Assembly: GCA_031213475.1 (NCBI GenBank) | Contig: JARUPZ010000016.1 | Location: forward strand, 9,936,270-10,000,269 | Direction of reading: 5' to 3' | DNA from: Nereocystis luetkeana | Taxonomy: Eukaryota > Sar > Phaeophyceae > Laminariales > Laminariaceae | DNA: 64,000 nt | Shown here: positions 868 through 63,331 of the stretch, one piece after another | How positions within the stretch are numbered: the first letter of the stretch is position 1 | Layout of the letters: each line of letters begins with the position of its first letter | The notes under the pieces: generated by a model | The model's database searches: none | Told to the model about the DNA's origin: nothing | Seen by the model: only the letters and a program-made list of their open reading frames with translations | Position numbers and translations under genes: made by a program

Positions 868-1311
868 CTTAGAAGTACCCGTGAAGCCACCGGCGTCGAT
901 GTGAGACCCGGTCAGCACGGTGTCCACGGTGCACACAATCGCGGCGCCGGAGGGGTGCGAGTCCGGCAAAAACTTGCTGCCACCCGCCGCGGTGAAATAG
1001 CGATCGCAGTTACTGCCGTCCACGTCCACCGCCGCCACCCCCGTGTCCGTCAGGACGACCGCATCCAATGCGGTGTTCCCTGTGTTCGAGATGGTGACCT
1101 TAAACCTCGCGACGTCACCCTCGTCCGTCGAGGCCGAGTTGAGCCCTCGAAATGTCGAAATCGACTCCAGCGTTCGGTTCACCAAGATAGCCAGTTTTTG
1201 TGGAATCTTGACGTCGTCGCCGTCTTCGTCGATTACTCGAACCGACCCCGGAGGGGGTGACCAGCCCTCAATTGTAGCGCTGTTTGACACCGAACCGGTG
1301 TTGATATCCTC
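868..1311 (-). CDS. Exon 42 (444 nt), tail of one module fused to most of the next
   Basis: Acceptor CCTTGCCCAG|GAGGAT in phase 0; EDINTGSVSNSATIEG, FKVTISNTGNTALDAVVL, SGAAIVCTVDTVLTGSHIDAG; phase-0 donor TCTAAG|GTTGGT. It matches exon 19 (414 nt) along its whole length, including the absence of two introns. The next exon should match exon 20. Confidence 0.93.
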
Positions 1312-4300
1312 CTGGGCAAGGGGGAACAAATCGAGATTCACCGAAGAACGCGAAGAAGTCAAGTCTCCTAGAGCGATATAATTTACGTTGTTACTGCTCC
1401 TGCCGCACGACGAGTCTCGCAGGCAACAGCCATCAGCGGGAAAGAATCGCGATTGACGCTGATGCGTGGCCTCAATGCGAGAGCGATACACGTCCTACTG
1501 TAGCCTGTTACTGTATCTCAAGGTAGCATAATAGGCTCTATGGCTTCCACAGTAAGACAGGTCTAGCAGGTCAACCCCTAGTTTCGCAGGTGTCTTAGCG
1601 TGACATATTTCCTGCTAGTAGTCGTAGTAGATGGTAAGCAACAGTCAACTCCTTCACTTCGAAGTCACCAACGTTATTGGTAATCGTTGGAAATACACCC
1701 TGCCAGACATGTAGCTAGCCGTTTCCGCAGCCTCTCCGACGCTGCTGCAGTCGCTGGAGATGCACCGCAACCACTCTCTAGCATGCCAATATGTCCCTTA
1801 AATATAAGGGCCGTGATGATGAAACATTAATCGCAAACGCTTCCTGTATTCAAGGAGGGATAGGTAGAAAGTCAGCGACGTCAGTGCGTTTATATACAGC
1901 AATACATAATCGTAAACGGCAGGGGGTATAATGGGTAATTACCTACCAGGGTACCATTCTGTCCGGAACACAAGTACCGTTCCGGTATCCGTATTGGTGA
2001 CGTAACGGTCCTACCTCTTTCAAGCAGAGTGGTAGTGCTCTACCACCCAGGATGCCCACCTGAGTGATGGAATATCGGGACGAGCTCTTGCATTCCACCT
2101 TTTCTGCGGGAGCCAGCGCGAGACCGGACAGGTCCGGACTGCAAACAACGGGCACCTGAGCAAACACCCGAGAGGGAAAAGAGTGGTTCAGGCGAACCCC
2201 TACCCTGTATCCTGAGTGAACAAAGTACAACTCCCCGCCGTCGGGTCCTTGTGGTCCGACCGCGATGCGATTTATTCGAATGAAGCTGCTCGAGGACCAA
2301 GCAGAGAACGTATTCGAACCGACCGGAAGGGAAGGGGTCAGCAGGTATCGAATTGCACTGACAGTATCCGGTGAGCGTACATCTATGTATGTAGCCCATG
2401 CACGTAGCGTCTTGTGAAAATCAACCCATGCATTCATGGTTTCCTGGGTTGTTCGCGCATCAGGTCAGGTCGGGTCGGGCAAGGGTGACTCGACCCGACC
2501 CATCAAAAGTCCTGACTCGGCCCGACCCGACCCGTTTGGTTTCAAAGCCCACCTGATACGACCCGCTGGTTGGCTCATAATCCTTGAAGAGCCCTGATTA
2601 TTTTACCCCTCACAAATATTATGGACTGTTCGTATCACATTTGTTTTTTAGCCACCTCTCTCGGGTGTGATAATTGGTTAGTGACTGCAGTAGTGCCACA
2701 CCTCTTCTTTTGCTTACCTCCCTCCTTTCTACCCATGACAGTCGTCTACCGCCGCAACCTCCGGATCGAAAGCAACCCTTCGTATATGGTATGAGAACTG
2801 TCCGTCGCCGAAAACCGCGGGACAACAAATCAGCCCTTGGCATCCATAGCAATTATCGACCGTTCGTTGTCAAGCCCGGATAACAGCACAGGTAACCGGG
2901 ACCCCTTACCTTGCACAATGTAGGTGTAAAATAATCCCTGTGGAGACTTGGAATGATGTAGCACACCCCACACGGTGTCGAACTTCTCTCAATTCGGTAC
3001 GTCTAATGGTGTGCTACACTGTTCAATGTCTCTCCACAAGGATAATTTTACGCCCACATTGTGCAAGGGGGGCATCATGGTCCCGGCCATTTGTGAATTA
3101 TCAACCTACCTTCCAGTCTCCAACTCTATCTCGACTACAACGGTTTCGAGCAGATCCACTGACCAAGCTGTCCTCGAGGATCAAACGAGAGATTGTCGTC
3201 GTGCCCGCGTTTCGGATGGAAAAGGTGTAGATAATCCCGTCGCCGAAGACCACATCGTCCTCTTTCCCGTCGATTTTCCCGTCCGCCTCTGCACGTTTTC
3301 GTCATGTTGAACCAAACAAGAACACACGAATGGGAGAACATTTGCGCGAGTACCTACTCTGAAGGTGCCCGGGTGTCTACCGTACCCGAAAATGACCATA
3401 CCAACCAAGTTTGATACCCAGGTACTTCAAAGTTTGTACCCCACGATACCCGGGTATCCTAAACCTGTACCTGAGTACGGTTTATACTCAGGTGCCCCAG
3501 AGTCCGGGCGGCCCGAACTATGTACAGGCCCCCTCCTATTGTAGAGTATAGTAGGTATCATCTGGCGTACCTGGGCACCCCAGAGCATGGTTCATAGTAA
3601 GTTGGAAGTGTTGGAAAGAGGGGAGTATACTCGGGGGATACCCGGCTACCTACCCGAGTATGACAAAAACAACTGGATTTGGTACCCGGGTACCTGCTTC
3701 AGTATGATCAACATAACTAAATTGGGTACCATGGTACCTACCCGAGCAGGCCGAAACAACTACAGTGGGCTTGGCACCGAGGTACCCCAGAATTTATGCC
3801 TTACTGCTAAACACGCGCGTGTTACTACTTGGGCTTGCCGACACGATTGCCAACTACGTAGCGCGTAGAATGAGGTTATTTCAGCATACAGTTCGCCACC
3901 TCGCTTAAGAAGTTGCTAGTCAAGAAATCCGGAGGTAACAAATTGGGAGTTCACTGTCTTTTGACTCTCATGTTCTACATCTTTGAAGGCAGATTATCTG
4001 CATGATCTGTATGACTTAGCTCGTGTTGCCGGGTAGGAGCCCTACGACCAACATTATATTTTAGTAGCACATGTTTTTTGGGTTGGATCTGTGCTATAAG
4101 GATCCTGACACCAACCCATACCGTCAGTAGCCATCCCACAGTAGGGGTGCACCATAAGTTCCTGAGCCCCTTAAATTTGGAGCTCAATATCTCACCCGAT
4201 ACAATACCGGGAAGAAATTCGTTCGTGCCACCCGATCGGTACTTACTTGTATGCGCTAGTCCTAAAACGAATACACGCGTACTTCTTTCATCCGAACTGG

Positions 4301-7300
4301 TAGTTCCTCACTTAAGAAACTCAATTAGTCAGGAACCTTTGGCCCGAAACGTGCTACCCCTACCGTGGGGTTTGATTAAAAAGGTCAGGACCTACTACGC
4401 GTATAGATGATCTGCAGGAGATCGCGATCTAAATCGTTACGCGTCCGTAGATGATCTAGATCGTCATCTGCCTGGCGATGTGTGAACACCTTCATATCCG
4501 AACTTACCAAGAACGAGCTTGTTGGTACGGCGGAGGTTGACCAGTGTAGTCGAAGAAGTATCGTCGCTTCCTCCTTGTGTATCCACACACGAAACGCCGA
4601 TCGACGTTTCTATGTAGCCCACGTCAACGTCTGCTTGCTGTACCTGCTCGTAGAATGGACCAAATGGGTAGGGATCACGCCAACGCTGTTAATGGGAATG
4701 GCGTCGATAGCGTCACGGGGAACACAGAGGGCTTCGAACGGATAGTTGAAATAGGTTTTGCCATACATACGCGCGCAGCTGGATGTCGTATCTGCGTTGA
4801 TGATGACTAGAATGAATTTTCGGGGTACATGCCTTTCGCTACGAGCTCTCGTGCTGGTGGTTATCTGCAGCTATTATCGTGTCAACGGTTGTGTGTATGT
4901 CTGGTGATATAAACTATTTATTTTTGAAGAAAATTTCGTCCGAACGGCGCGGATCTCTTGTTTCGCTCAGCTCGAAAGTAAAGCATGCCTATATTTCCAG
5001 TGCTGTTCATGGGTCAGGTCAAACCCCGCGGGTCGGCCCGGGTCGGGTAGGCTCGGGTCGGGCCAGAGTGACCTTGCCCGATCCGTGAGTTTTTTCAAAC
5101 CTCCTGACCCGACCCGAACCGACCCGTGAGATTTGGAACACCTCCTGGACCTGACCCGCGGGTCGGGTCATGACCCTTAAATAGACCTTGTTGTTGTCCG
5201 TACCTGTAAATCCGCACATCTGTTCGTTCGGACCGTTCTAGCAGGGAAGAATGTTCAATCTACGCTTGAAGTAATGGTGAGCTGATGGTGTGCTGATGGT
5301 GTGCTGATGGTGTGCTGATGGATGCGTGCTGTGGTAGGGGTGTTGTAGCTCCTTAAGGGCACTCATCGATTTCGTGAAATCAGTGAGGTTAGACGGCAGG
5401 GAGAGACGCCTATGTCCTCGCTCGAGGCGATCTCTACCTCGACCCAACACAACTTGAGGAACCAAACACCACGGCCCTCGACTGCGGTTGGCTTACAACG
5501 AACTTAATCTGAAAAACGTTCATAGGGTTCCAACAATATTGTGTAGTGGCGTCAATGCCTTCAAAGAGCCAGCTCCGCTAGTCAAACATACATTACGACA
5601 TGTGTGTTTTTGCCAATAAACGATACACTGATCGTGTCGTAGCCCGCCTCGAATGTCAATGCCCGAACGTATTTTATGGGTGCGGTCAGCGCGGTATTCA
5701 ACAACAGCAGAACGGAACTTTTACTGCTGTTGTGTCATACTATTCAACGTACCTCGACGTCGAGCGCACATTTGAAGCTTTCTCCGGGGGCTAACTTGGC
5801 GGCATGCGGGCAAGCCTGGCAGATGTCATCCACGAAGTAGTCGCTCGTGAGACAGTAGCTCAAAAGCGTGGTGGTGCCCTCGTTCGTTACGGTGCAGACC
5901 AGGCTGATATTCTCGCCAGTGCCGGCGACGAGGGCGTTACTGTGCCCATGTTTCCCGTCTCCGTCTCCATCACTCCAAGCCCCGGCCACATCTGATCGGT
6001 GTCGAGGGGTATGGACCGCGAAGCAAGCTAAGCGTATTCAAGTAGTCAACTATTTTACGACTCGGTTGTTTTCGCAAATACTACCAAACTTCCCGCAGGA
6101 TTGACTGCGTATGCAGCAGAAGCGAGACCTGAACGCCGTGTGAACCTTTACTACGATGGTGACTGCTTGTTCGGTAACTGCTTAGGTTGGTCCCCAACAA
6201 AATGTAGAGCTTAAGCACCGACCTAGAGAAACGCTCGCAGTGCCCGCCAGAACGATCCTAATCTCCTGTTTGGCGTCTTTGGAGGACCCCTCACGGTCCA
6301 CGCACCGAACGTTTCCCTCGCCGAATATCTCCCCGTTGTCCACATCATCCTGCGTGACGACGTACTTGCCGGAGCACCTGATCGCGGCATCCTGAGGGCA
6401 AAGCTCTGACACGATAATGGGCAGAACGTCAGAACCGCGATACAAAGGGCGTAAGCTAACCCATTCCACGGTAGGGGCACTCTGTACTGCTCTTTTGCCT
6501 TCTGAGGAAATATTGTCCCACCGGTTGAGCTCCTACAGTGATCCTCTACCGGCTAGTATGACACCTTTATTACCAGTGTAATCAGCATTTTTTCGGACTT
6601 TAGTCAGGTTGAACATTGGCGGCGAACCGTGACGGTTACATCAACTATTGTGGCCACTGCCTCGCTGGGGGTTGATACAAATAGATAGGTGTCCGGGTTG
6701 CGATGCGAGGAGCCGTACGGCACAGTCACGGCCGCAACAAGATCCTCTCCGTACCACGGACGGGACGCTAGCGCTGCTACTCGTAGACGGCTGATGGCAC
6801 CAACCAAAGCTATCAACCTTTGTTCTGGTCGCTACCCTTACCAATAAGGAGGGGGTCAAAGGAGTTCAGGTACCAGCGGAAACGATAATTTGGTCGAGTT
6901 GTGCGGAAAAAGTTTATGACGGTAGAAAAAGTCACGTTTCCGGCGAACCGTACTGGTATTGAGCCCCTCGTGTGAGCGAGTAGGAGCTCTGGAAATAAGG
7001 CTCCACCTCTCGTAAAAAGCGTCAACTCGAATCGTGCAGTGGAAATATCGACCTGCGACGGCGTCGGTCGCTCGTTTACATATTTAATTCCCTGACACAA
7101 GCGGAAAACCAACGGCAACCGCAAATATATTATACACGTGCGAGTATTGTATTTTCGTGAGCGGAAGGGATCTTGCGATTAGTCCGCACGTCGGGAAAAC
7201 AAGTAGATGATCTACAGATAGATACTTTACAAATAAATAATCTACTGTATACCCTGGTATAATCTACGTAGACTCTGATCTGCCGTTCTGAGCTGTTGTG

Positions 7301-10300
7301 CAGGGTTTGTGCAGAACATATCCACTTCAGGAAACATGTCTTTGACCGTTCAGATTGTTTAGCTCCCACCCGTCCACGTGGGCTAGACCCTGCCACTCAC
7401 TGCGGTCGGAGACATAGAGGTCATTTCGACACTAATACAAAGATCGAGTGGTCTATATATTTCGCAAAGAGCAGTACATATATATCAGGGATGCATGTAT
7501 CTGCCTTGGGAGATCTGGATCCTCCAGTAAGAACCGTCGGTATGTATGTGCAGGGTGGGGAACAGTCACGGTTTCATCAGGAATGTGTTCGAATACTTAG
7601 CTATGGTATTATTTTTCCGGTAAAAAAAGGCATATACCAGGGGGGGGGGGGGGGATGAAGGGAGAATTCGGAAAATGAGAGGAGGAAAAAACTCGATTCG
7701 TACAAGGTAGTAATTAAGGGCCTATACCACTGTGCTCGTATCGGATTTCGGGATTTCACAGAAACGTTGCTCGGTTCATTATTGGTTACCAGGCACAATC
7801 GTATGTACCATGTGTTGATATGAGTGCAAGGTCTCGGGTGGGTCGAATACACTAAAAGCCCGCTCCATCGTTGGATACCTGGTATATCCTTTTTGGTTCC
7901 CTGGAGTCCGCAGTGGTGGAGTGCGTATGCTTGTTTTTTGTTTTTGCCTCTGTTTTACTACCACCGAGGTATTTCTTCCACTCCAGAGTTATTGGAGCCT
8001 GTCCTGCAACCACGGACTGCATTGCATTGTGCGTGAATGTGAGAACAACAACAATAACCGTCACAAGTGACTGCTTCGGCCGCTTCATAGCACGCGCCGG
8101 AAATAGCACCGCGAACATTATCGCAGTGGGGGCTCCATCGTCGAGAGTACGTTTATTCAAGAGGATCTACATCAACTTTTGAGAAGATTGTAAATTTGTT
8201 CAAGGTTGTTTTAGATCGAATTCAATTAGCTAAATAAAATATCCAGTTACAGCTTGTCCCAAAATAGACAACACGTTTTCGAACTCTTCTAACGCAGGCT
8301 TCAGAACCTTTTGACTGGGCCGCAATTGCACCTCAAAGAGGGTTGAGTATAATACAGACGAACGACACCTGCCAAGCAGACACTACGGGCACCACCACGA
8401 CGCTCGCGACTCGTACAGTTCCACACATTGCAGCTCGGACATACTCGTCTACCCCAGGAGCGCCCGGGTTCCTTTGTGTGGGCCGATGCTGCAAATAAAT
8501 GCCGTTTTCTTAGTAGTAGTGATCGAAGGGGGTTTAACCCTATTATTTAGCACTGCAGTCCCGTTTTGAGGACAGATTACCCAGAATCTGAGTGGATTTC
8601 CCCCCGAAAGGGACTGCGGTCCTAACAGTCCTAAAAGGGTTTGATCGTGGTAAATATAGGGCTCCAGAACACGAAAAAAAAAGGCCACCTCACCCGTGGT
8701 TGAGATGTCGCACGTGAACGCTGACCTCTCCACAAAGATCTCCCACAGGCAGGTGTTTCCCGTGTTCGAAATCTCAATCTCGTACTTGATAGTGTCCCTG
8801 GCTTTCAACTTGTTTTTGTCGCCGGCTTGAGCTTCGGGAGTCACCACTGCAGAAAGCAAAACAAAACACAACCCGGCCATGTAGAAATCAGCTTTCTTTT
8901 GCAGTGCATTGTTCAAGCGCTGGGGATATTGGCCATGTAATGTGTATGACCATCGGTAATTTCGAGCGAACGCAACTCTTGCGCGTTTTGTCTTCGAGCG
9001 CACCAGCCCACGTACAGCATGATGTTCGGGAATCGTCGGGCTGGTTCACCCTTCGGGGTTGGTACATAGCATGGGTTTGCGCTTCTTCGGAAAAGGGGTA
9101 TACTTAACGAGTTAGGAACATTAAAGGCCCGCCCCCCTGTTTTTGCGCCTTTGCTTTTCAGGAAAAACGTAACGAAAGCGGAATGTTTTGCTAATTTATC
9201 AAAACCTCTAGTAACAAAGAGATACACAACAGGAACGCCTACGTAGAAGTCATGTTTCAGGAACAGTTGCGGTAATTTATCCAAAAATCCAACAAAGAGC
9301 AAACACACAGGAACGCCTACGGACCAGCCCTACTTCGGGAACAGTTCCGGCATACAATACTTGACCCTTTTAGGACCGCAGTCCCGTTTTGGGGACAAAT
9401 TACTTAGAATTTGACTGGTTTGTCCCCAAAACGGGACTGCGAACCTAAAAGGGTTAAAGAGCAAGAAAATCCCTCCCCTGAGTATTTTACAGGTTGGGTT
9501 TGCGTCGGTTGGCAATGCCACTCACTGTAAAACATGACCCTCATTGCGTGAGCCAGACAGACAAATTACCGTTTCAATTTTTCTTTGGCGGTTGGTCACA
9601 GCTGGCGATCGAGCTTGATAACTTGTGCGGTGTGGATAACCTTTACTCTGCACGAGAGAAACTATCGTATCACGTACCTGGAAGCGTTTATGGTAAGGCA
9701 CTCACGAGGCAGTTATATAGTACCCCCATCCATGGCTGTCTTCGAACGTGATCACACCGTAATACAAATGAACCCGTTGAAGCTGTCATCTAGACGTAAG
9801 TCCGCCTTTCTTTACCAGCGGTTCTTTGTAGCACCCTCGCCGAGCACCTCACGGCGCTTGGTGCTTGGTGGAAGCAATGACTGCCTGGCCGGTGAAAACC
9901 CAACATGCTCCGTCCCGGCATTGGAGGGATGCGAGGGTCTATGGTCACGCGACTACGGCCATGCATGATATCGAGTACACCCTCCTCCCCCACTCCCAGT
10001 CTTTAATATTGCTTTTCACCGCGTCGGGCGGTAGCAAGGTTTTGCCGGACTCAAACCCCCCGGGTGCCGCGATAACAGGGGCCTTTACCAGCGCCTACAA
10101 AATACTGCTTCAAGACTTCCGCGCGGTGTAATCTCGGGAGTGTATGCGCTATCATGTATGGAGCAGTTGAAGTACCTTGTAGTTTTTTTCGCTCCTCAGA
10201 ATGACTCCGCCTCTTTAGTGTACTCTAATACGGATTTTGTTGGACTAATAACAGTGGTACATAAATACAGAGTTGGCGTTTATTTCCTGTGGTTGCCACT

Positions 10301-25300: not shown

Positions 25301-27383
25301 GTCGGGTCAAGACTTTTTTTTAAGTATCACGGGTCGGGTAGGGTTGGGTCAGGAGGCTTTCGACCTTTCACGGATCGGGTCGAGCTGGGTCGGGTCCCCT
25401 TGACCCGATCCGACCCGACCTGACCCGCGAGGCTTGACCCGACCAAGTGAACAACGCTGAAAACAATTGGTCTTGTCGCCCCACCTTTATCCTTCACGAG
25501 GCCATCAACCCCGTAGCACGCTCCATTGCAGTCTGGTTTTTAAGTGAGCAGAATTGTTCGGCTGCATGTTTCTAGTGGTAGATTAAATTCCTCGTGTGGC
25601 AAGCTAAACAACGTTGCACCATCGCTATAAAGCGTTGCTCAACCTGAAAAACACTCAAGGCACATCGTGTGCCTCGGAGGTGGAAAGTTAATCATCTCTT
25701 GAATCAGCATGAGCTATTACGGGGGAACATAGTTAACAGGACCTATTGTGTACATAAAAACCTATATGTTAACCCATTTTTACTAACAATATTTGGTCCT
25801 GTTAACTATGTCCCCCCGTAATAACTCAGTTTTGTTGCTGACCAATATCTGACTGTCGGGACTGTCCTCCTCAAGTGCGGAACTACCCAATATGACTGAA
25901 ACACCATTATTATTAGCAACGCTGCTAATAATAATGGTGTTTCAGTCATATTGGGTAGTTCCGCACTTGAGGAGGACAGTCCCGACAGTCAGATATTGGT
26001 CAGCAACAAAACTGAGTTATTACGGGGGGACATAGTTAACAGGACCAAATATTGTTAGTAAAAATGGGTTAACATATAGGTTTTTATGTACACAATAGGT
26101 CCTGTTAACTATGTTCCCCCGTAATAGCTCATGCTGATTCAAGAGATGATTAACTTTCCACCTCCGAGGCACACGATGTGCCGACGGTGAGGCAAAGTGC
26201 GCCAGGTCGGTCTCTCAAGTCTGCACCGTGCTAAGTGTATATACCTGGATACGCTACTGCAAAGAGGTCAATGTGAACAGCATACCATGTGGACCTCTGG
26301 CGGCCGTGCGAGACTTACTGTGTTCACGGGCTTTCACTCGAGCTCTGAGGTGCCAAACCAATGGGAAGGGCTCTATGCGGGGTGAAACGGCAACATGAAA
26401 ACAGTTTGACATGTGGAAAAACACAATGCGCAATGTATACCACCTGGGCCTATCGAAGGTATCGCTCTGATTGTATTGCAGCACGAACATGGGATCAACG
26501 ACACGAGGATAGTTCCTTACCGCCCCTAACGAACCCCGCCGATCAGAAATGTTTTGGACAAAACATGCTGCTCTTTTCGCGCTTGGTGCGAGCACGCAAT
26601 GCCTGCCCGGTCGACGAAAACCCGACGTGCTCCGTCTCGGCATTTTGTAGGGATGCGAGGGTCTATGGTCATACGACCTCGCCCATGCACGCCAACGAGT
26701 ACACCTCTTCTCCCCTTCCCTCCGCTATCGCAGCACGCGCCCTTCCCAACATCGTGCTTTTTCTACCAGAATGTTCGCTCTATCCCTAGTAGGCCATGGG
26801 GCTGCCGTTTCTTGTTTCTTCTAGAAGCCTTCGGTGGGGTACAGAGCTCCTGTACTGCAATCAAGTGAATAAATAACCTCACAAAATATGGGGTGGACCC
26901 CTACACCGTGCATAGCATGCATCGTTCGCTACACAGCGAGATCAGTGGATGAAGCTAACCTTGATGCTGCTGACCACGATATCTGCACTGTCGGCGAACC
27001 CAACGGTGCCGTCGACCATGTCGTCCTTCCAGTGGGCCTTCAATTCTGTCGAGAAAAAACACGGAAAAACAGAGAGCACAACATCGACAAGAACGACTGT
27101 TACAATTCTTTGATATTTTTTCAACTGTATTAGTGTATGATGAAACACGTCAGTTGTTGTGAGATCGAGGGTTTCGTCGAAACGCTTCTTTGTAAGCTCC
27201 GTGGGATATTTCCACATAGCGGACACAGCACGAAAGGAACAGAGCGCAACAACAACGACGGCACGTCCACGAAAAAACGATCGACACACACTGTTATGTT
27301 AGCGACGCTTGGCGTCAAAGTCCACACGGTCAGACTACTTGGAATTTGTCAGGGATAACGCTGGCAGCGGCGGTCTTTGTTGC

Positions 27384-27414
<31 letters not shown>

Positions 27415-31813: not shown

Positions 31814-31844
<31 letters not shown>

Positions 31845-36450: not shown

Positions 36451-36493
<43 letters not shown>

Positions 36494-39039: not shown

Positions 39040-39089
<50 letters not shown>

Positions 39090-51000: not shown

Positions 51001-54000
51001 ATCCCAGCAATCTAGAACTGTTCACTGGTGCATACCTAGTGGTTAGTGCTTCAAATATCTCAGCTGTGAGTTTGACCAATTGAATTGTTGAAAAGATGAA
51101 TAAATCGAAGGTGGGTCTAATAACGTCATATATCACGTTTTCACCCATGTTCTACATATGTTGAAGCGCATCGGTTCACATTGCATCACATGTGACTCAG
51201 ATTGCACCGCATTTGGCTCAGGCTGCACCGCATTTGACTCACGGCTCACCCCGTTCGGTTCAGGTTTCATGGCATTCAGCCTGCGTTGGCATTCATGTAT
51301 TCTACTTATCTCGCAACGAACAAAATCATCGGCAGTAGATGTTTCAACCCTTGCGATTCGACCCTTGTGCCTCTGGTTTCGCGCAGAGGTGCGACCGTTT
51401 GTCGGCGCCCGTTTTGTTCGACAAATCGAGCGCTAAAAATACCATCGATGCGGAGGAGAACCAGTGTGCGGCACCGAACCGCTTTACGTCTGCCTCAAGA
51501 TACGCCAGGCTTTGGCTCTGTCACCTGGCGGAGGGAGACCGTCGACCAAAAAGGTACGCTCTCGATCGCATGTTCTCCCAAGACGCCGGCGCTCTTTTCA
51601 TAGTGTGCAAACGCCTTCACGCTGTCCTCCTTCGCTCCGGCGTTGATCTGTGGTTTGGTTTTGGCAGAAAACAAACGCGGTGCCGGAGGCAAGCGTCAAC
51701 CGGCGTCAGGCAGGCAACAGTGGTCTGCAAATACATGAGTCTGTCTTTTTTGTATTTGTGGTCCTCGTGTGCGCCGGGATGCCCGGGCGGGGTAGTCTAA
51801 AATCAAAGCACCAGAGATGAATGCATTTCCTGCCTTTTTTCTGGAGGACAATCTACTGTAGGTATGTCGCCGGTCAATGAATGAAACCATTAGGTTCGAT
51901 GAGGCCTTCTGCCCTGACTAGTGGGTGGGGTCGCCCCCGGATGTAAAACATCCCCACGTTGAGTGCACGCTCGCCGCGACAACCATCCTGATTGTGCTCC
52001 GGAACACCAGAGCTGGGCAGTCTCAGATGAACGCACTATTCATATAGAGAGGCATGCACGTTATGCCCTCAATTTTGATTAATTCGGTGGCGCTTGCAAA
52101 GTCGTCACAATTGACCGTATGCCAATCGCGCACTGCACTTGTCAGATGACACAACACTCGCGAGGCCGGGTACGGTACCGCCGCACGACTCGAAATTGGT
52201 TTTTCGAAATCTCCAACAAGGTCCTGTGGCCAAACACTAATTCATGTACCCAGCATTGCTGAAAATCGTTAACTCCAACCAACCCCTCTTCACCAAACAC
52301 TAAAATAGAAGGGTGACTATTGTAGTGTACACCCTGGTGTAAATACCGCCTCCCTCGGATATGAAAACCATTTTTTTCATCCTATTTATTATCTTCGCCC
52401 TCCTTTTGTCCCTCCTACAAATAGCCGCTACTCAGATCCGGGATCACACAGCAGCCCCCCCCCCCCCCCCCTCCCCTCCCCACGGCAGCTCGTGCCTTTC
52501 TTTTCTTATCGCGAGATCACTCCAGCAATTTGCTTCGCGTCGAATTGATGCCTTGAAGTAATAAAAATGCTAAGACATCTCAATATATTTCTGTACCAAC
52601 TGGAGTTGGGGTGAGGAAGTAATGGGAGGGGGAGGGGGAGAAGGGCTAGGGGGGGTGGGAAGGATTCGGGGGAAAGCGACGGCGATAATAATGAGGGGAT
52701 TCGAGGTTGAGTCGGCGCTAGAAAGGGAAGGGACGGCGGGAGAACGTGGTGATGCCGATGGGGGCGCGGGGGAGGGGTCGAGTGGGACCAGGAGGGGTTT
52801 GTGAGTGCTACGTACAATAGTACTTCGTCTATTTACTGTTTCGCTGTGCCTCACCTCTGCCTGGGAAACGGCGCTTGTCGCGGTGCACTCGATGTAATCG
52901 GCGGGGGCCAATCCCGCCTGGGGGTAGTAGGTGGCAAGGCCAACCACTATCCCCGCGCTCGCCCCTGTGACGGGCTGACCGCTGGTGGTGTCCACGCAAT
53001 GAATGACTTCGCCGCTCTCCAGAAGAGATTCAGCTTGCAGTGAGATGTCGTACAGGGTCAGCAAACCGCTGTTCGTGATGGTATACACGTACTGGACCTT
53101 GTCATCCGTTGCTGCCGCTACCGTTTTGGGCCCCTTTCGGATGTAGGTGCTAGTCAGTTCGAGTCTAACGGAGCCGACCTGGGATAGCAGAGAACGACGA
53201 AGCGAGAAGAAATTCGAGTGTGTGCTGCGTTTGGCGAGGGGGTATGCATATATATACAATATATACCAGGTATATATATTGTACTTATATATATATATAT
53301 ATTTATATGTGTCGGCATTGGCGTGTCCTTGGACATATCGCCTCCCTCTTTTGTTATATTTACTTAATTCACACTATTAGCGATAATAGCCCAAGTTGGT
53401 CATGAACATATATGATCCACCCTTCCCCATACGTATGTGTTTTTATCGTCTCCTCATAAAAAATTGATGCATGATTTTTCCACCCCCTTGGGAAGCCTGT
53501 ATCGGCCAACAGTGAAACTATGACTTACTTCACACTACCGTAGTATAAGTAGTATAAGTCCACGAATAAGGATATAAGAACGGATCAGAACATAAGGCTC
53601 ATTTCGGGGGGGGCGCTAAGAAAATTGCAACAAGAAATCGTGCTGAGCGGCGAACGCTTCATCGGAGTATTATATATGATAGCCTATGTTCAAGCCCGTT
53701 TCAGGATGATGTCGGAATAATGTTCTAAGAATTGCTTACAGAATGCCCCGTCTTGGCGGGCCCTTACTCTAAATAAGTAGGGAGATATAAACCAGGGTAC
53801 CGGGTATTTGGTATGTTTATCTCCCCCCCCCCCCCCGAATGTGGAAATGACGATTGTGTTGAAATATAAAACTGCATGAATCAACTCGAATCTACTATCT
53901 GGCACACTGTCTACAAACCAAATACCACTGCAGTAACTAGAATAACTCTGCGGAGAACAAGCAAAACATACATGAACACGTGTCATCGAAGTGCAAGACG

Positions 54001-57000
54001 ACATAATGAAACATTGCATACTACTGCTGCTGCTGCTTTACAGGCCAAACACGCGACAATCTCAACTCCACCTAAAAGGTGTGTTGGTTTTTTCGCTTTT
54101 CTGTGGCGGTATGATACCCCCTATATACGACCGACCGCGATCTGTTCTCATAAATATTTTTAGACATTTCGCTCCCCTCTGTTCTGCCCGATGCTGTAGG
54201 CAGGTGTCAACGTGGGGTCTCGAAAAACTTGAATGGGCCTGATCAAAAAGGCAACACTATCCCTTGTTGTGCGCAAGGGTTGAATATAAAGGCGTACAAC
54301 AAGCAGAAAAAAAACAAATCTTCACGGGACGATGTGAAAAGTATCAACATCTCGGACAGAAAAGCGATTCCCACAGTTCATGACATACTACTGTATGCAC
54401 TACTGTAGATCTTTGGAGGCAAACATATCATATATTCCCGAACTTGTTTGATCTACATACAGTAGCTCATGCTGCCGAGTGGGACCTTTGTAATATGCGC
54501 GACCTAACAAGAGCACATGTTTTACGAGGTTGGATCTGCCCTAGAAGGCAGATCTCGCGCAACATTTCACGATGGCAGGTGGAGAACTAAATTTTCTATC
54601 GTCCATAGGTAGATCAGATGTATCACGATCTATCTGTCTATCTGAGGCGTGCAAGCATGTCACCTGTTCGAGATCGACGGTGGTGGGTTCCGTCGCTTCC
54701 ACGCTCGTCTCGTACGCATCGACAGCCGTCACGGTGGTGCTGCTGTCTTTCTTGAGGTTGTCGACGTCGGCGCCCGTAAGCTCGTAGGCGCCAGTGCATT
54801 TTATTTGACCGCCGACGACAAGTGGGGACGGAAAAATAATCGTGCCGCCGACCACAGAGTGTTCTGGGTCGCAGTGGACACTTGAACTCCCCCCGCTGCT
54901 GCCACCTATAATATCGCAGGAGAAGCCGATGGTGATGATGTAGTAAATGAGGCAGGGAGGGAAAACTGTAACTATGAACGATTGCGGAAGGCAAGATACG
55001 CTTGCGTGTATGTTCCACTTGTACAGGTGGCGTACTGTTTAGGAACTGGCAGAATGGGAAGGCTCACAGGCCTATGTTTGCGCGTTTTGAGAGCAGTAGC
55101 AATCCACCGCTTCTTGTATTGCATATCATACCAAGAATAACGCATTCCACAGGGACAAACTAGGGGATTGGAAGAAGGGGACAAGGAGCGATTGTATGTT
55201 TCTGTTAACGACAAAAATACACTTCGGCTGTGAGAGCGAGGGTTTCGTCAAAACACACACATTTGTGAGCTGCGTGTGATAGATCGACTAATGTTGCCAT
55301 AGTGGGAAGGCTTGCGTGCCTACGCGAGTTGTGAAACTATACATATGATGACCTATTGGATAGATTGGGTTGCTTGGTAAACCGAACGATAAATGAGTGA
55401 TCAAAGTTGAAGCTCATGCGGCATATTTTCGGAGAACGAACGCAATAGTAATAAGAAACCCCCTGCAGACCATAGTGTATGTAGCGCCTAGCTGTCTGGT
55501 ACTGCACCCTCATTCACTTCATTGGGTGGAAGAACGCGAGGAGTTGTTTGTCGAGGACCTTCGCGAGACGTAAAATTGGCAGAACTTTACAAGTGTGGCA
55601 ATTTGAACAGGGAAACATAGAGATACAGAGGGAAGTTAGAATTTTCTTTTTTCGTTTGGTTCCTCTTGGTTTTCGTCTTCGCGGCAATGTTTATGAGTGA
55701 TCAACGTTGAAGCTTGTGCTATGCTTTGTCGGATGGAAAACACGATCACACTGATAGCGCGGTATGCATAATAGTATTCCAGGTACCGGTACCAGAGGAA
55801 TACCACTCTGTCCGCCCCCTTTGATGTTCGTATAGTAGTCCAAACGGGTACCTGGTAGAATGTAATACCCGTTTGGGGCTTTATCTGCACAGCAAATAAA
55901 ACCTACATTATTGGCGTTTTTGGCTAGTCCCCAAGGGCACTCCATGGAAAACTAGCCCGCGGAAGGCCCACGGACAGCCCACGGACAGCCTATAGACAGC
56001 TTGCAGGCAGCCCATGGAAAGCCCATAAACGGCAGCCCACGAGCGGTCCACCGGCAGCCCATGGGGAGTCTTTTATATTAATCGCTCTGGTTATCCTGCG
56101 GGAAGAATGGCCCACGGGAAACCCATGGGCAGCCCACGGATCCCCCACCGAGATCCCATGGACGGCCCGCGGACAGCCCGCGAAGGTCCTGCTGCTCGCC
56201 CGAGGACAACCCGTGGATAGTCCAAGGACAGCCTGTGGATAGCGCACAGGTAGTCGACGGTTATAGGTTTTAAATAATCTTCATGGTCAGCCTTTTGAAG
56301 GAAAAGCCTGTGGACGGCCCAGAGACAACCCACGGACAGTCCACGGACAGTTCTCAGAGATCCCGCGATCAGGTCGCGGACGGCCCACGGACGGTCCATG
56401 GACATCTCGCGGACGGTTCGCGGACGGTTCACTGACAGCCCGCGGATAGTTCGCAGACAGTCCGCGAACAGGCTGTTTGAATAATATTCATGTGCGTGTT
56501 ATGAGGAGAATTTCGTCGGACAGCTCATGGACAACCCACGAACAATTAACGGGCATCCCAAGGACTACGCACGGGTCCGCGGGCAGTCTGGGGACAGCCC
56601 GTGAACTTTTCACGGGAAACCTTTAGACAGACCGCGGACAATCCACGGGCATCCAGCAAACACCCCGTGTAAAAGTAATAGAGAGCCGCGAACAGTTGGT
56701 GGACAGCCCGCAAAACAGTCCATGGACAGCTCGCGGGTAGGACCAATATTGTCCACGGGCAGTCCATGAAACGTTCACGGACAGCCCATGGACAGAGCAC
56801 GGACAGCCCGCGAACATTCACGGACAGTTAATGGACAGCCATAGTCAGCCCGAGGACAGCGCATAGACACCCCACGGACAGTCTGCGGACAGTGTACAAG
56901 CAGCTCACGGACAGCTGACAGACAATCCACGGACAACCCATGAACGGATCGCAGGGAGTCAACGGACAGTATGTTTCGATACTCATCATGGCAGGTTTTA

Positions 57001-60000
57001 GAGCAGATGTATCCGCGAACAGCCCATGGACAGCCCACGAAGAGCTCGCGGTCAGCCCATGGAACGCCCGAAGACAGCCCACGGACAGTTCGCGAACAGC
57101 CCATGGCCCGCCCGCAGATGATCCACGGACACCCGCGCACAGCCAAAGGATAGCCCGTGGAAAGTCCGAGGACAGTGTGTCTGAAGAATCACCATGCTGT
57201 GTCTATTGGTAGCAATATATCCGCGTACAGACCATGGAAAGCGCGCGGAAAGCCCACGGACGTTTGCGGACAGGCCACGGTCAGCTCCCGGACAATTCAC
57301 GGTCAGTTCACGGACACCACGCGGTCAACTCGCGGACCGACGACGGACAGTCCGCGATTAGCCCATGGACATCCCTCAGGCAGCCCCCGCGGAGCCCACG
57401 GACAGGCCACGGACAGCCGGCGAATAGTACATAGACAGCTCGCAGACAGCACATGGACAGTCCATTGACAGTTCGCGGACAGCTCACATACAGCCCGCGA
57501 ATAGCACGCATCCATGGACCGTCCGCATACAGCCCGCCGACAGCCCATGAATAGCCCCTGGACAGTCCGTAGACCGCCCATGGACGGCCCACAAGCAGTC
57601 CATGGACAGCTCGCTGACAGACCAAGGACAGCCAGCCCGTGGATAGTCCGTGGACTAAATAAAAACAATCCCATTCTGTAAGGAAAAGACCAACCCATAG
57701 CACACGACATCTGACGAAATCGCAACAAAATTACACGGAAAAAAAGAACCACACGCAATACCCAAAAACCACACACATAAAATCACTTCATAAAAAACGA
57801 GTACCTGGAACCACACTACAATACGATACATGGAACTCCCACAATATTGAACAACATCGCTGAACATCTACATATCAGCACAGACAAGGAAATATCCGAA
57901 ATCAGACGATATATTGCAGTTTTACTATTGCTACTGCTACTACTGTACTACCACTACTGCCTCCCACCCATGGACAGTCCGTGGGCTATTACTCCCGTGG
58001 GCTGTCCGCATATTGTCAGTCAGCTGCCTGTGAGGTGTCTTCGAGCCGTCCGTGGTGCCATTGGTCTGTTCGCGAGTAGTCGGTGGTCTCGCCGTGGGCT
58101 GTCCTTGTGCTATCCTTGGGCTGTCCTTGTGCTGTCCGCGATATATCCATGGGCTGTCCGCGATCTGCCCATGGGCTGTCCATGTCCTGTACGCTATCTG
58201 TCTGCGAGCTGTCCGTCAGCTGTTCGCGAGCTGTCCACGGACTGTGGGCGGCCTGTCGGTCGGCTGCCTGAGAGGTGTTCGTGGGCTTTCGGCGACCTGT
58301 CCATCGACAGTTCGCGGGTTATATACGACCTGTCGACGAGCTGTCAGCCGGCTGTCCGTGACTGTCCACGAGCTGTCCATAGGCTGTCAATGGGCAGTTC
58401 AGGGGCTGTTCATGGTCTATTTGTAGGTTGCCCATGGGCTGTTCGTGGACTGTCTTAGGGCTGTGCATGGGCAGTTCGCGAGCTGTTCATGGATGTGGGG
58501 TATCCGTGGGCTGTATGTGAGCTGTCGACGAACGGTCTATAGGCTGTCCATGGGCTGTCTGCGGGTTTCCCACGGACTAGCTGTCCATGGTCTGTCCGTC
58601 AATAGTCTATGGGCTGTCTGTGGGCTGTCCATGGCCTGTCCGAGAGATGTCCGTGGGCTGTCCATGCATTGTCCGTGAGTTGTCCGTGGGCTGTTCAGGG
58701 GCTGTCGGCGGGCTGTTTGTCGAGTGCCCATGGATGTGAGCTGTCCGCGAACTGTCTGTGGGCTGTCCGTGGACTGCCTATGGGCTGCCCATGGGCTGTT
58801 CGCACTTTGTATGGGCTGTTCGCGGGCTGTGAATGGGTTGTCCACGAGCCGTTCACGAGCTGTTCTCGAGCTGTCCATCGGATGTCTACGTGTTTCTGTG
58901 AGCTGTCTATGGGCTGTCCGCGGGCAGTCCATGAGCTGTCCGCGAGCTGTCTGAGTGCCGTCTGTGGACAGACCGTGGGCTGTCCGCGAACTGCCCGTGA
59001 GCTCTCCGTGGGATTACCATGGGCTGTCGAATCCGCGGACAGCCCACGGTCAACTGACGGACAGACAACGGTCAGGCCGGCGACAGCCCATGGATTATGG
59101 ATGGGTTTCCATGAGCTTCAACAAAGTGTTCGATAGCTGCCTATGGGCTGTCCGTGGGCTGTCCACGGGCTGTCCATCAGCTGCCCACGGGCTGTCCACG
59201 GGCTGCCCTCGGGCTCTGCGGGGGCTATCTCATAGACTGTCCGCGTTCTGTCTATAGGCTGCCCTTGGACTCCCAGGGGCTTCCATGCCCAAGCCACGAA
59301 CAGCCTGTGGGCAGCACGCGGACTGTCTGTGGGCTGTTTGCGGACGACCCGTGAACTGCCCTTGGCCTGTCCGTGAACTACCTTTGGGTTGTCCGTGGGG
59401 TTTCTGCGGCGTGAAGGTGGTCTGTCAGTGGGCTGTCCGTGGACCATCCGATCGCTGTTCGCGGACCGTTAGTGGGTTAACGTCCGCGGGCTGTTCGTGG
59501 ACTGCCCATAGGCCGCCCATTGGCTGTCCGCGACCTGTCCTTGGGCTGTTCGTGAGGCATACCCCCGATTCGATGCCTTGGAAAAATCATCAACGTACAA
59601 TCATGTCGATCGTCGAGTACAGCGGTAAATTCACAATATGTATTATCTTGTTTTGCCATCCGGCAGTGTGCAGCGTGAGCTTCAGCTATCACTCGTAGGC
59701 ATGCTTATAAAAAGAAGAAGAAAAATACGAAAAAACCAAGAGAATACTTGTACTTTTTTAGGAATGATAGTGCAACATGCACTCACCATGGTGAAACCTA
59801 TACATGGCGCTATATATATAAACACGGTGTGCTCCCTGTACTGTGTGCAGACCGGACCGATTGCGGTAAGGTACCTGACACGAGTGACGGATCGCTGACC
59901 CGAACGTCGGATAGTGTGGCGTGCCCGGTGTTCGTTACTATAGCGGTGTACCTGTGAGATTACGAGCGCAAACATAATATAACGAGAAGGAAACGGAAAG

Positions 60001-63000
60001 GGCAGCAGTTGAAGCATCAACAGGTTACGCAGGAAGTAGATGTGCAGGAGGGAGTAACACTTCGTGCATACGTTTCCTTGATGTTTCGGTTTCCCTTGGT
60101 TTTTTTCTTCTTTCGGAAAACGTTTGTGAGTGATCAACGTTGAAGACCATTCTGCTGCACATGATTGGATGGTGCACGGGATATCAATACAATCATAAAT
60201 GTTTGCCCCAAAACGATATGTCACACATAGCTAAAACAAACAGAAATACAGGATGTTATTATGTACCAGGTACATGGTATAGAGCATGGCCGATTTTCGG
60301 CGTTTCAGCCACGATCCTGGTGATGTCCTGACCGCACCCATGTGGTATAGCTCTGAGACCGCGGTGAAGCGCCGCAATGACCTGACTGTCGTAATCCCTG
60401 CACATTGAACACTACAGCAGCGATAGCCCACTCGCTCTAACAGTAGGGGCATCATCTTTTTCACAGAGCACGGTGCGCTTACACGATAGTTTCTCCAGCG
60501 TTTGCACGGTCGTCCTTAGAGTCCGGACTGTCCACGAACAAACCCGTCACGCCTGGAGGTGTGGAGAGGATAGAATGAGCAGAGGGCACACGCACGCGAT
60601 TGCCGAGAGTGAGGCGTCCGGACCAGCCGCGTGTTGCGGTATCTACCTCGCAGACGCTGGTCAACAGGACTGAAAAACAGGGTCCTTCTGGGAGAGATGG
60701 AGAGCTGTAACAGATGAAGGCCCGCGACAAGGACCCTCGTGGTAGTAGCTACTGTTAATACTGTTGTATTCATCGATCCAATGGGAGTGTCGAGGCACAT
60801 GGTACGAGCGCGGTGTGCAGCTGCGTTTGTTTTATGGGATCCACCCCTTAGCGTTGAGGGGGGAGAGAAAGCGCACCCCGATGGCCTAGGTATACAAGGG
60901 ATGCCTAAATGGAATTCACAGATGCTGTTCCAACGATATAGGGTACGATAGTTCCTCGGAAAACTAGCCCCGGCAGTCAGTTTTGTTTTGGCTAAAACTT
61001 TCCCCCCTATCGCACCACATGCCTTCAGCTACAGCACCATGGAAGGTCCTGCGCGGCTCGGCGAGGCCGAGCGCGTTCAATATTTCTTCAGCAAATACCC
61101 CGACGCATTTGCATCAACAACACGCCGACTTTTGCCTTTTACGTGAAGCCTTTGATAGCATCAGAGTCGAGTCGGACCAAAGCTATCAGATATTTCCACG
61201 AGCACAAACAGGATAGAATTTGTCACTCACCCAACGAGATGGATGGAGGCGGCTTGAGGACCACCTCGAGTGTAACCGGCTTGGTCTTCGTACCGAGAGC
61301 ACCTGCAGCCGTAGCGGTCACCCTGAGAGGGGATATAGCGGCAAAGCCAAAGAGGATGAAGGTACAGACCTTGAGGGCCATCTAAATCAATTGGTGCTAG
61401 GCATTCCAGCGGGGGGGGAGACAGCCAACAATGCAGGCACCATATAGCGGGAACCAGCACTAACTACTCCGCATACAGTCACACTGGTTAATTCAACCCA
61501 CATACCAAGCGAATTTGCTGGCGGCACTATAGCGGGCAGCCGGCACTACTCAACGGGCAATGTAAAGGGACACCTACTGCTCTGGTGGGGGTTCGGAGCT
61601 TTGTTTCCGTGTTCCTCTGGTGGCGAGTGTGATCGCATGCAAAGAAAACAAACCAAGGACTATCGTTTTTGTTTTATGTGCAGAGATCAACATCGCACTG
61701 TGTTTGTTTTCGTTATGACCTTTTGGGGGGGCGGGGGGGGGTATGGTGTCGTTGAATTTGTCTGTCGTGTTACAGTATAGGCCCAGTAAGAAATAACTTG
61801 ACTAAAAATAAGATTTTGGGGGGGGGGCGCTAAGAAAGTTAGCTGCTCAGCGACGAGCGCTACCGTAAATCCCACCAGGTATATACAGTACTTCGAAGTA
61901 AGGTTGTTCAAATATTGTGTCACTGTACTCCGAAGTAAGGTTCTAAGGTTTTGGCCACCTTAGTTAGGCCTTTCTTCTTGAAGGGCCCGTGCTACTGTAG
62001 TCGAGTACTAAAACTATACTTCCTCTGTCTCATAAGTCTGGGAACTTCTAGACTATTAATTGCTCGCGTATGCACACTATTCCGATCATCCTATAGTTGG
62101 GTTCGTTGGAAAGATGAAGCGCCAACGAAGTTGATGCAAAAAAACAAGAAAAAAAAGAATTTGTCCATACTACAATGAAGTCAAAATATGCCCATTTTGG
62201 CCCTTTTTTTATAATATTTTTGAGAACGTTTTTGAGGTTTTTTATGAGAATTCTTGTGATAATTCGTGATCAGCACCCCAAACCTACCCCACACACACTA
62301 CAAACGATGGATACGCCCCCAAGTACCCCCCCACCTCGCTGTAAGGGTGGCGAGCTATCAGAGGGCCGCCGCGTTGCAATTGCGGTGGAGGTGGCGCTGG
62401 CTATTCCGCCGGGCAAGGTGCGGGTGCCCAAGGGCTCGATGGGCCCGATCTGCGAAAAGTACGGTGTTGGTCCCAAGTGTTTTGGTTTTAGTGTGATCCC
62501 CCAAGTGTCTTGGTTTTAGTGTGATCCCCCAAGTGTATTGGTTTTAGTGTGGGACCCTCAAGTGTATTGGTTTTAGTCTGGGGTCAATATTATATTGGTT
62601 TTAGTATAGGGGGAAGCGACATGGATACGTGGGGGTTGGGATTGGGCCCTACTGGTGTTTGGTTTGCCCCGCAAGTGTCTTGGTTTTAGTGTGGGCCCAC
62701 CAAGTGTCTTTGTTTTAGTGTGGAACCCCCAATTGTCTTGTTTTCAGTGTGGGTTCATTATTCTACTGGTTTTAGTATAGGGGGGCGCGACATGGATCGT
62801 TGAGTAGCGAGGGGCGAGGTTTAGGGTCAGGGATAATTCTTGGGGATTTCTAGTTTTATTTTCCAATAGTGCCCCCACCCCCCCCCCCTCTGGAAAGGGG
62901 TCAAATACGGCCATTTTCGGCCTGACTATTTCTTTATTAGCCGCTAGCCAATGCAAGGTAGTGCGCAAGAAAAAAAAAAAAAAAGTGTTTCAACCCAAAC

Positions 63001-63331: not shown

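Follow-up and report, generated by a model that had tools for sequence, protein, structure and literature searches.

A predicted giant vWA–DUF7507 gene in the brown alga Nereocystis luetkeana and the probable growth of its stalk by duplication of a ten-module, 23-exon block

Titin has grown by the copying of domain blocks, comprising ten and six immunoglobulin (Ig) domains in the I-band and seven and eleven domains in the A-band (PMC12241362, PMC10665226), and in the triplicate region of nebulin eight exons are repeated three times (PMC9109913). DUF7507 is presented as an Ig-like domain of compact form that builds surface stalks in prokaryotes and for which a Lys-Asp-Asn isopeptide bond is predicted, and the same survey judges eukaryotic isopeptide hits to be likely false positives or contamination (PMC12617251). 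An integrin-like protein of Ectocarpus (CBJ33612.1, 348 amino acids) matches human beta3 at the metal-ion-dependent adhesion site (MIDAS), as reported by PMC3192720. Here we report on a stretch of 64,000 nucleotides from the brown alga Nereocystis luetkeana (‘the window’; C16:9936270-10000269, where C16 denotes contig JARUPZ010000016.1 of a 465 Mb genome in 1,987 contigs), the minus strand of which carries the middle of a predicted giant gene made largely of DUF7507 modules. We consider it likely that this gene encodes a single-chain adhesion receptor with a vWA head, a DUF7507 stalk, one transmembrane helix and a tail, and that the stalk has grown by block duplication. By sequence, the case is built on the identity of the modules, the correspondence of exons, phases and modules in three copies, the single locus and the vWA and transmembrane predictions.

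The window has a GC content of about 50%. Ten out of ten unspliced minus-strand open reading frames (ORFs) match Pfam DUF7507 at E <= 1, and in four the score exceeds the 27-bit cut-off. An iterated module profile seeded with eight exon pieces finds 27 pieces on the minus strand of the window and none on the plus strand. The gene model of the window comprises 42 exons (7,008 nt, 2,336 amino acids) with unbroken phase and no stop codons, in line with the more than 2,300 residues announced in an initial annotation of this DNA, and in this model exons 24-42 repeat exons 1-19 with equal phases in all 19 pairs. It was obtained with a Viterbi gene finder, which imposes continuous phase on its exon chains, followed by inspection of the borders, and it was curated with the earlier claim known; borders of E3, E5, E7, E13, E14, E4', E5', E7', E11' and E12' were picked with the partner exon in view. 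E1-E23 constitute unit A and E1'-E19' (exons 24-42) the part of unit B inside the window. E20'-E23' lie left of the window and are given as R positions, which refer to the reverse complement of C16:9836270-10060269 (reverse-complement window position + 60,000).

63159..63331, minus strand: E1, second part of module 1; 173 nt, entry phase 0; finder and module profile match
61231..61322, minus strand: E2, end of module 1; 92 nt, phase 2; finder
60483..60552, minus strand: E3, start of module 2; 70 nt, phase 1; partner-guided border, different 5' border in a later finder run
59875..59951, minus strand: E4, module 2; 77 nt, phase 2; finder
54664..54905, minus strand: E5, end of module 2; 242 nt, phase 1; partner-guided 5' border (60 nt further upstream in the finder)
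52855..53178, minus strand: E6, module 3; 324 nt, phase 0; finder and Pfam DUF7507
51525..51647, minus strand: E7, end of module 3; 123 nt, phase 0; finder acceptor, inspected donor, whole in a later finder run
50147..50300, minus strand: E8, module 4; 154 nt, phase 0; finder
48656..48797, minus strand: E9, module 4; 142 nt, phase 1; finder
47656..47895, minus strand: E10, end of module 4 and start of module 5; 240 nt, phase 2; finder
46231..46324, minus strand: E11, module 5; 94 nt, phase 2; finder
44790..44922, minus strand: E12, end of module 5; 133 nt, phase 0; finder
41761..41922, minus strand: E13, module 6; 162 nt, phase 1; 3' border first partner-guided, later finder run agrees
40228..40413, minus strand: E14, end of module 6; 186 nt, phase 1; 5' border first partner-guided, later finder run agrees
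38513..38733, minus strand: E15, module 7; 221 nt, phase 1; finder, Pfam DUF7507 below cut-off
35351..35486, minus strand: E16, end of module 7; 136 nt, phase 0; finder
33767..33897, minus strand: E17, module 8; 131 nt, phase 1; finder
32858..32953, minus strand: E18, module 8; 96 nt, phase 0; finder
31933..32346, minus strand: E19, end of module 8 and module 9; 414 nt, phase 0; finder and Pfam DUF7507
30824..30911, minus strand: E20, end of module 9; 88 nt, phase 0; finder, partner E20' left of window
28356..28570, minus strand: E21, module 10; 215 nt, phase 1; finder, partner E21' left of window
27807..27942, minus strand: E22, end of module 10; 136 nt, phase 0; finder, partner E22' left of window
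26960..27045, minus strand: E23, start of module 1'; 86 nt, phase 1; finder, partners E23' (left) and E23o (right, by similarity) both 86 nt
24965..25137, minus strand: E1' (exon 24); 173 nt, phase 0; finder
22930..23018, minus strand: E2' (exon 25); 89 nt, phase 2; finder
21359..21422, minus strand: E3' (exon 26); 64 nt, phase 1; first finder run and border inspection
20548..20624, minus strand: E4' (exon 27); 77 nt, phase 2; border inspection, later finder run agrees
19858..20096, minus strand: E5' (exon 28); 239 nt, phase 1; GC donor picked by eye
18501..18821, minus strand: E6' (exon 29); 321 nt, phase 0; finder and Pfam DUF7507
15079..15195, minus strand: E7' (exon 30); 117 nt, phase 0; first finder run and inspection, later finder form shorter
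14537..14705, minus strand: E8' (exon 31); 169 nt, phase 0; finder
13972..14098, minus strand: E9' (exon 32); 127 nt, phase 1; finder
13134..13373, minus strand: E10' (exon 33); 240 nt, phase 2; finder (shorter form in one run)
11405..11498, minus strand: E11' (exon 34); 94 nt (97 nt possible), phase 2; picked by similarity to E11
10476..10608, minus strand: E12' (exon 35); 133 nt, phase 0; first by similarity, later finder run without pairing agrees
8694..8846, minus strand: E13' (exon 36); 153 nt, phase 1; border inspection and later finder run
6223..6405, minus strand: E14' (exon 37); 183 nt, phase 1; border inspection and later finder run
5753..5991, minus strand: E15' (exon 38); 239 nt, phase 1; finder
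4508..4643, minus strand: E16' (exon 39); 136 nt, phase 0; finder
3110..3288, minus strand: E17' (exon 40); 179 nt, phase 1; finder
2060..2155, minus strand: E18' (exon 41); 96 nt, phase 0; finder (longer form in one run)
868..1311, minus strand: E19' (exon 42); 444 nt, phase 0; finder and Pfam DUF7507, next exon E20' left of window
R 124140-124227, minus strand: E20'; 88 nt
R 125106-125317, minus strand: E21'; 212 nt
R 126362-126497, minus strand: E22'; 136 nt
R 127044-127129, minus strand: E23'; 86 nt

The initial annotation had described this arrangement as an ancient duplication of a block of ten DUF11-like modules, and much of it was recovered in our own model. The length differences within the 19 pairs are all multiples of three, the same seven pairs are equal in length, and the exon ends recur at 63331 (E1), 27045 (E23), 24965 (E1') and 868 (E19'). 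Left of the window, the partners that had been predicted for exons 20-23 are present with the same phases (88/88, 215/212, 136/136 and 86/86 nt), and all four are also returned by the finder without pairing information. A repeat of ‘exactly 1,245 codons’ describes exons 1-23 (3,735 nt), but unit B runs to 1,265 codons, so that the figure is true of one copy only and is not an invariant; the strongest self-offset of the protein, 1,243, falls near the expected diagonal. Ten modules per unit were confirmed, although the family proved to be DUF7507, a sister of DUF11. As to the size of the block, put at about 38 kb, only the present extent of exons 1-19 can be given, which is 31.4 kb for copy A and 24.3 kb for copy B. 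The correspondence of exons, phases and modules supports the proposal that the whole block was duplicated together once its introns were in place.

Direct comparison of the two copies yields a Smith–Waterman score of 1354 (378 of 1,032 aligned columns identical); 30 shuffles average 60.9 +/- 8.1 and do not exceed 81. In the window all nine module pairs are reciprocal best hits, with identities of 28-40% compared to a mean of 22.5 for non-pairs (standard deviation 3.9, maximum 39.2), and the mean score at a module offset of 10 is 156 whereas other offsets give 42-80; M1 enters these 19-module comparisons without its first exon, which lies outside the window, while the 37-module analyses described below include it as E23o. 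Comparable introns do not differ in phase within any module pair of the window (the module 9 intron is not comparable there), and their alignment columns agree with two exceptions, both of which adjoin length differences: the start of module 2 and, in module 8, the middle intron. A lower-order period within the ten-module unit was sought and rejected: cyclic offset 3 ranked top of offsets 1-5 and was not significant (0.092, 3,000 permutations).

Because the finder forces phase continuity and some borders were partner-guided, controls without pairing were made, both of which use codon and splice statistics learned from the curated exons and are therefore not fully blind. A finder run devoid of pairing information recovered 34/42 window exons with exact borders, and 76/88 in the longer model introduced below. 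Among those 76, homologous pairs agree in phase and length modulo three in 37 of 37 cases (15.0% for all exon pairs) and are identical in length in 17 of 37 (1.2% for all pairs). When each border was chosen singly, without regard to neighbour or partner, the curated acceptor was recovered in 83/88 exons and the curated donor in 80/88, and both phases agree in 47/57 homologous pairs (all pairs: 13.7%). Since phase is forced by the finder, the independent figure for one gene is the 78 of 87 joints that are phase-compatible with singly chosen borders, compared to about a third by chance; compatible joints include E22-E23-E1' between units A and B and E22'-E23'-E1'' between B and C, but not the upstream E22o-E23o.

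The finder output also contained candidates that were rejected. The first run, with 288 exons, was an overprediction, and later runs took low-complexity runs of isoleucine and valine for exons. Discarded by hand were R 44378, 48604 and 180252 (low complexity), R 211433, 211677 and 214558 (past the stop codon) and a possible N-terminal exon at R 36748/36763 (unproven), as were finder exons at reverse-complement window positions 39884, 46706 and 53094, which have no place in the model. For E11', the acceptor 3 nt upstream, which gives the 97-nt form, scores slightly higher (4.7 vs 2.8).

The introns bear on the age of the event. Intron–intron comparison between copies A and B detected no homology beyond scattered pieces of mobile elements, and across 18 matched introns length shows no correlation between the copies (Spearman 0.07, p 0.79); matched introns 10 and 12 have common fragments, three out of four of which lie in opposite orientation. 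As matched introns are unrelated in sequence and length, the duplication is old, as had been suggested. The introns hold other repeats. A MITE-like (miniature inverted-repeat transposable element) sequence of about 110 bp with inverted ends occurs in many introns in both orientations (e.g. 24644-24740 and 26031-26127), and many of the intron–intron matches (among the 50 listed of 76, at 71-97% identity) are copies of it. The intron between E23 and E1' contains a perfect palindrome at 25659-26182, with two 260-nt arms and a 4-nt centre, that stems from a fold-back insertion of very recent date or else from faulty assembly. Intron 4 (4,969 nt) houses a long 11/22-bp minisatellite array at 56333-59397 (GGCTGTCC...), giving spurious ORFs on both strands, and about 88 AGGCA copies at 35503-35940 in intron 15, just upstream of E16, create long spurious frames.

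With flanks of 160 kb added (224 kb searched in all), a profile of the 19 spliced modules finds 79 pieces on the minus strand and none on the plus strand. E23' is followed by a third copy, C, of exons 1-14 (modules 1-6). Exon lengths in A/B/C are 173/173/176, 92/89/89, 70/64/70, 77/77/77 and 242/239/233 nt for E1-E5, 324/321/315, 123/117/117, 154/169/154, 142/127/130 and 240/240/240 nt for E6-E10, and 94/94/94, 133/133/133, 162/153/165 and 186/183/138 nt for E11-E14; for E15-E19, A/B lengths are 221/239, 136/136, 131/179, 96/96 and 414/444 nt. E2'' and E3'' were found via partner similarity, and E9'' was preferred over a 163-nt form. Nine further modules continue the chain past the third copy. 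One of these, X2 (R 148796-150385), is module-6-like with best hits to M6 and M6b and comes after the third-copy modules 5-6 and X1, a position hinting at a further, smaller duplication. Upstream of exon 1 lies a probable exon-23 partner, E23o (86 nt, same phases), found by similarity and with an acceptor that is not the best one locally, and further upstream are a module-10-type pair (218 and 136 nt) and a module-7-type pair (224 and 136 nt). Together these form an 88-exon chain of 4,581 amino acids and 37 modules with no stops and no phase breaks, using 84 GT and 3 GC donors. The chain ends at R 178104 and excludes the exons at R 181188, 182344, 184468, 186415, 187579, 190399, 192328 and 194136 as well as the vWA exons.

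The vWA exons lie upstream of the array at R 39148-46627 and match PF00092 (E 2.9e-18, 67.1 bits, profile positions 1-168 of 174, on an approximate spliced peptide); two vWA exons score 25.2 and 23.8 bits when tested singly (cut-off 23.8). In the finder model without pairing, exons at R 44746, 46402 and 49257 lead in phase into the array. At the opposite end, the last exon (R 194136-194966) encodes a strong hydrophobic segment followed by RR, a tail and the stop codon. Its hydrophobic peak of 2.39 is the sole strong one in the array and the last two exons (array peaks 1.65 and 1.85), the membrane-proximal part contains cysteine, and the predicted cytoplasmic tail of about 165 residues includes NPLF and NPMF. 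Integrin tails carry NPxY/F motifs.

The one giant gene of the initial annotation is thus supported via phase, domain logic and position, amended in that it is far larger than the window. We predict that it occupies about 9,865,300-10,021,100 of C16 on the minus strand (~156 kb), with the window as its middle, that the array comprises at least 37 and probably around 40 DUF7507 modules, and that the protein is about 5,500 residues long by our estimate. In a genome search for DUF7507, all 12 matches at E <= 1e-3 fall at 9,872,491-10,007,883, within this gene; 41 candidates were scored, exon by exon and unspliced, and a faint gene elsewhere could escape such a search. Bacterial contamination is not compatible with about ninety predicted exons, long introns and an 11-Mb contig, and we regard these predictions as strong evidence for a truly eukaryotic DUF7507 gene. 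Genome size and intron length are in keeping with a kelp-like genome; the Saccharina japonica assembly is given as 516 Mb with a mean intron of 1,816 bp (PMC11836290). In the N. luetkeana genome we also observed at least 150 matches to EsV_1_7_cys (150 of 1,710 candidates were scored and all match), many of them lying in ORFs whose lengths range from several hundred up to 1,700 amino acids, and none in 14 control genomes. The EsV-1-7 family is expanded in brown algae.

Assignment of the modules rests on profiles. In a Pfam scan (alignment A2) covering 16 of the 19 window modules, with M1, M3 and M3b left out, all 16 spliced modules match DUF7507 (PF24346, ‘CLIPPER_2’) at E <= 0.01 with a best E of 2.6e-20; the module scans also returned DUF11 in some cases and weak matches to a few other families. 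The NCBIfam model TIGR01451 is found in 2/7 members, at best with 18.9 bits against a cut-off of 24. A PDB sequence search with a seven-sequence profile (alignment A1) gave no match at E <= 1, and with one module as query, which can detect close relatives only, none of six candidate stretches in viral contigs was related. The Lys-Asp-Asn triad is present by alignment in 55/58 bacterial domains (drawn from five loci that were selected for their similarity to this gene) and in 1/37 modules here (M4b), the placement of the N-terminal Lys column being unsure in diverged modules. By their profile the modules are assigned to DUF7507, then, but not as isopeptide-bonded domains. All 37 modules have two cysteines, and a conserved Asn and Gly each occur in 36/37; a second aligner puts the first cysteine in its column in 32/37 modules. 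Bacterial domains have cysteine at these two columns in 38 and 37 of 58 cases. Calcium-binding loops were also looked for: a loop of the DxxDG(D/N) type opens merely 5/37 modules, and we therefore make no calcium claim.

Phylogenetic analysis of all 37 modules recovers the trios of M1, M2, M3, M4, M6 and M10 and the pair of M9 as starred clades; M5 and M5b group at 94/85, and position 7 falls loosely with the upstream module and two later modules (87/92). Restricted to the 19 window modules, the tree has starred pairs at positions 2, 3, 4 and 9 only. In best-hit searches among the 37 modules, 23 of the 26 modules of units A-C find the same block position.

How such a protein may have arisen and operated can be outlined as follows. 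Single modules and their introns would have multiplied first; the ten-module, 23-exon block would then have been copied within the gene to give two full copies and a third of modules 1-6, whereupon the block positions diverged yet remained recognisable. We infer that the exons are spliced into one mRNA and that the product resides at the cell surface, forms disulphides, binds ligand and bears force. The vWA head would attach to a ligand carried by a neighbouring cell or lying in the wall, the stalk of Ig-like, putatively seven-stranded beta-sandwich modules would space the head from the membrane and carry load, and the tail would link the receptor to the cell interior. The two invariant cysteines of each module could pair as a disulphide, replacing the bacterial isopeptide cross-link.

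Several points weigh against this picture. The peptide that gave the vWA match consists of approximate pieces of five exons, two of which have uncertain borders in mid-domain. A complete MIDAS metal-ion motif has the form DxSxS...T...D; by eye, DESGS is present here but THG stands where TDG is usual. Neither a first exon nor a signal peptide was found in the upstream flank, and the NPxF motifs are short and may be chance occurrences. The model has a gap of one exon at R 178104-181188, so that only position and strand link the C-terminal part to the array. In the finder run without pairing, 8/42 window exons are absent or differently bordered. As to the modules, 8 of 34 inner branches in the 37-module tree are starred and 15 open, position 8 is not resolved and M9/M9b carry a long-branch warning; M1/M1b and M7/M7b are not clades in the 19-module tree; and the best hit of M7 and M7b is the upstream M7-like module Ua, that of M8b M5c.

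The most serious challenge to a single gene comes from the idea that the locus comprises two or three tandem-duplicated neighbours of about ten modules each. An ORF at 26942-27298 with an in-frame ATG runs into E23, by eye a stop lies about 15 codons past the E22 donor, and the phase continuity of the chain is forced by the finder. However, the joints E22-E23, E23-E1', E22'-E23' and E23'-E1'' are phase-compatible with singly chosen borders, as are 78/87 overall. The unit joint moreover falls mid-module, as module 1' begins in E23 and carries on in E1', and a gene starting there would begin in the middle of a domain; E23 and E23' are both 86 nt with equal phases (likewise E23o, by similarity), and one vWA domain and one strong hydrophobic segment were found, at opposite ends. 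We thus regard separate genes as unlikely. It is improbable, too, that the product is a wall-embedded or secreted spacer or ruler whose tail and vWA head neither signal nor bind ligand: the vWA motif is non-canonical and repetitive stalks may be purely structural, yet there is a clear C-terminal hydrophobic helix with basic residues next to it and a long tail with two NPxF motifs.

The block itself might be an illusion if modules had multiplied one by one with the same introns. Unpaired modules do have intron places in common, namely the module start in phase 1, column 131 in phase 0 (M5, M7 and M10) and column 146 in phase 2 (M1 and M4), indicating that older single-module copying occurred, and the best unpaired identity of 39.2% lies inside the paired range. 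Nevertheless exon patterns vary among the modules of a unit and agree between units (37/37 vs 15.0%; 47/57 vs 13.7%), and the reciprocal best hits (9/9) and offset-10 score (156 vs 42-80) of the window leave such an apparent pairing a very small probability. We deem it similarly far-fetched that the gene is decayed and non-functional. Its long introns contain many mobile elements, and there are a few weak splice sites and three GC donors; but 88 exons encode 4,581 amino acids with no stops (openness being required by the model, with exons open near partner length), and two cysteines are kept in 37/37 modules although pairs are about one-third identical. The chance that the repeat is an assembly artefact or consists of unmerged haplotypes is close to nil. 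The perfect 260-nt palindrome in the A/B intron belongs to a class of feature that can reflect faulty assembly, whereas misassembly or haplotypes give near-identical copies, and the divergence of the units (paired modules just 28-40% identical, introns unrelated apart from mobile elements) speaks against it.

To our knowledge, cell-wall and cell-cell attachment of brown algae are poorly known. A single-locus giant gene for a receptor with vWA head, helix and tail would be a direct adhesion candidate, open to tagging and knock-out. It is conceivable, though we would sooner doubt than assert it, that brown algae, which are independently multicellular, evolved a single-chain integrin-like receptor of their own, in which a vWA head was put on a stalk of prokaryote-type adhesin modules gained once, the autocatalytic isopeptide lock gave way to one disulphide per module, growth followed a titin-like course of ten-module block duplications and stalk length sets the reach into the alginate wall. 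If the integrin-like reading were true, a single-copy gene of ~156 kb would encode a ~5,500-residue protein of this kind. Among the top-ranked matches in open-licence literature, neither this gene nor any eukaryotic DUF7507 gene is described, nor is an adhesion receptor of this architecture.

Comparison with known systems places the gene as follows. Like titin, it is a giant many-exon gene of Ig-like modules copied in blocks, ten-domain blocks occurring in both, and as in the central A-band the domains at the same position are most similar to each other. Titin is sarcomeric and contains Ig and FnIII (fibronectin type III) domains, whereas the protein here is composed of DUF7507 modules and predicted to be transmembrane and extracellular. 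In the middle-Ig region of titin one domain equals one exon; the introns of the present gene interrupt its modules at varying positions, which is why the block is visible in the exon structure. Titin homology was considered and rejected, the Pfam scans of the modules being without I-set, FnIII or kinase matches: judged by domain content, membership is excluded and the predicted mode of growth is titin-like. The stalk would be an independent parallel to titin, grown by ten-domain blocks and recorded in exon structure. With nebulin the gene shares a multi-exon block repeated within one giant gene, but the nebulin repeat is described as a segmental duplication with highly identical copies, in contrast to 28-40% protein identity and unalignable introns here.

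Bacterial and archaeal fibrillar adhesins resemble the predicted protein in module family (DUF11/DUF7507 = CLIPPER/CLIPPER_2), tandem stalk and overall character as a long surface protein; they differ in their predicted isopeptide cross-link, the triad of which occurs in 1/37 modules here (PMC12617251). In the five bacterial loci fetched, the genes are single uninterrupted reading frames. The two groups offer a natural comparison between isopeptide-locked and probably disulphide-locked versions of one module, and the present finding contrasts with the dismissal of eukaryotic isopeptide hits in that survey (PMC12617251). Mfa5 of Porphyromonas gingivalis and the streptococcal vWA adhesins likewise combine vWA with Ig-like domains in a tip protein, but Mfa5, in its solved half, has two Ig-like domains and an isopeptide bond and is fimbrial, with no giant stalk, introns or cytoplasmic tail (PMC7835359). 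Integrins share the vWA-type head outside the cell, the one transmembrane helix and the NPxF-type tail motifs, all predicted here, while the stalk of our protein is made of DUF7507 modules. Integrin beta subunits have PSI, hybrid and EGF domains around the I-like domain and pair with an alpha subunit. The individual parts of the present gene are known; what appears to be new is the way they are combined, the lineage in which they occur and the loss of the isopeptide triad.

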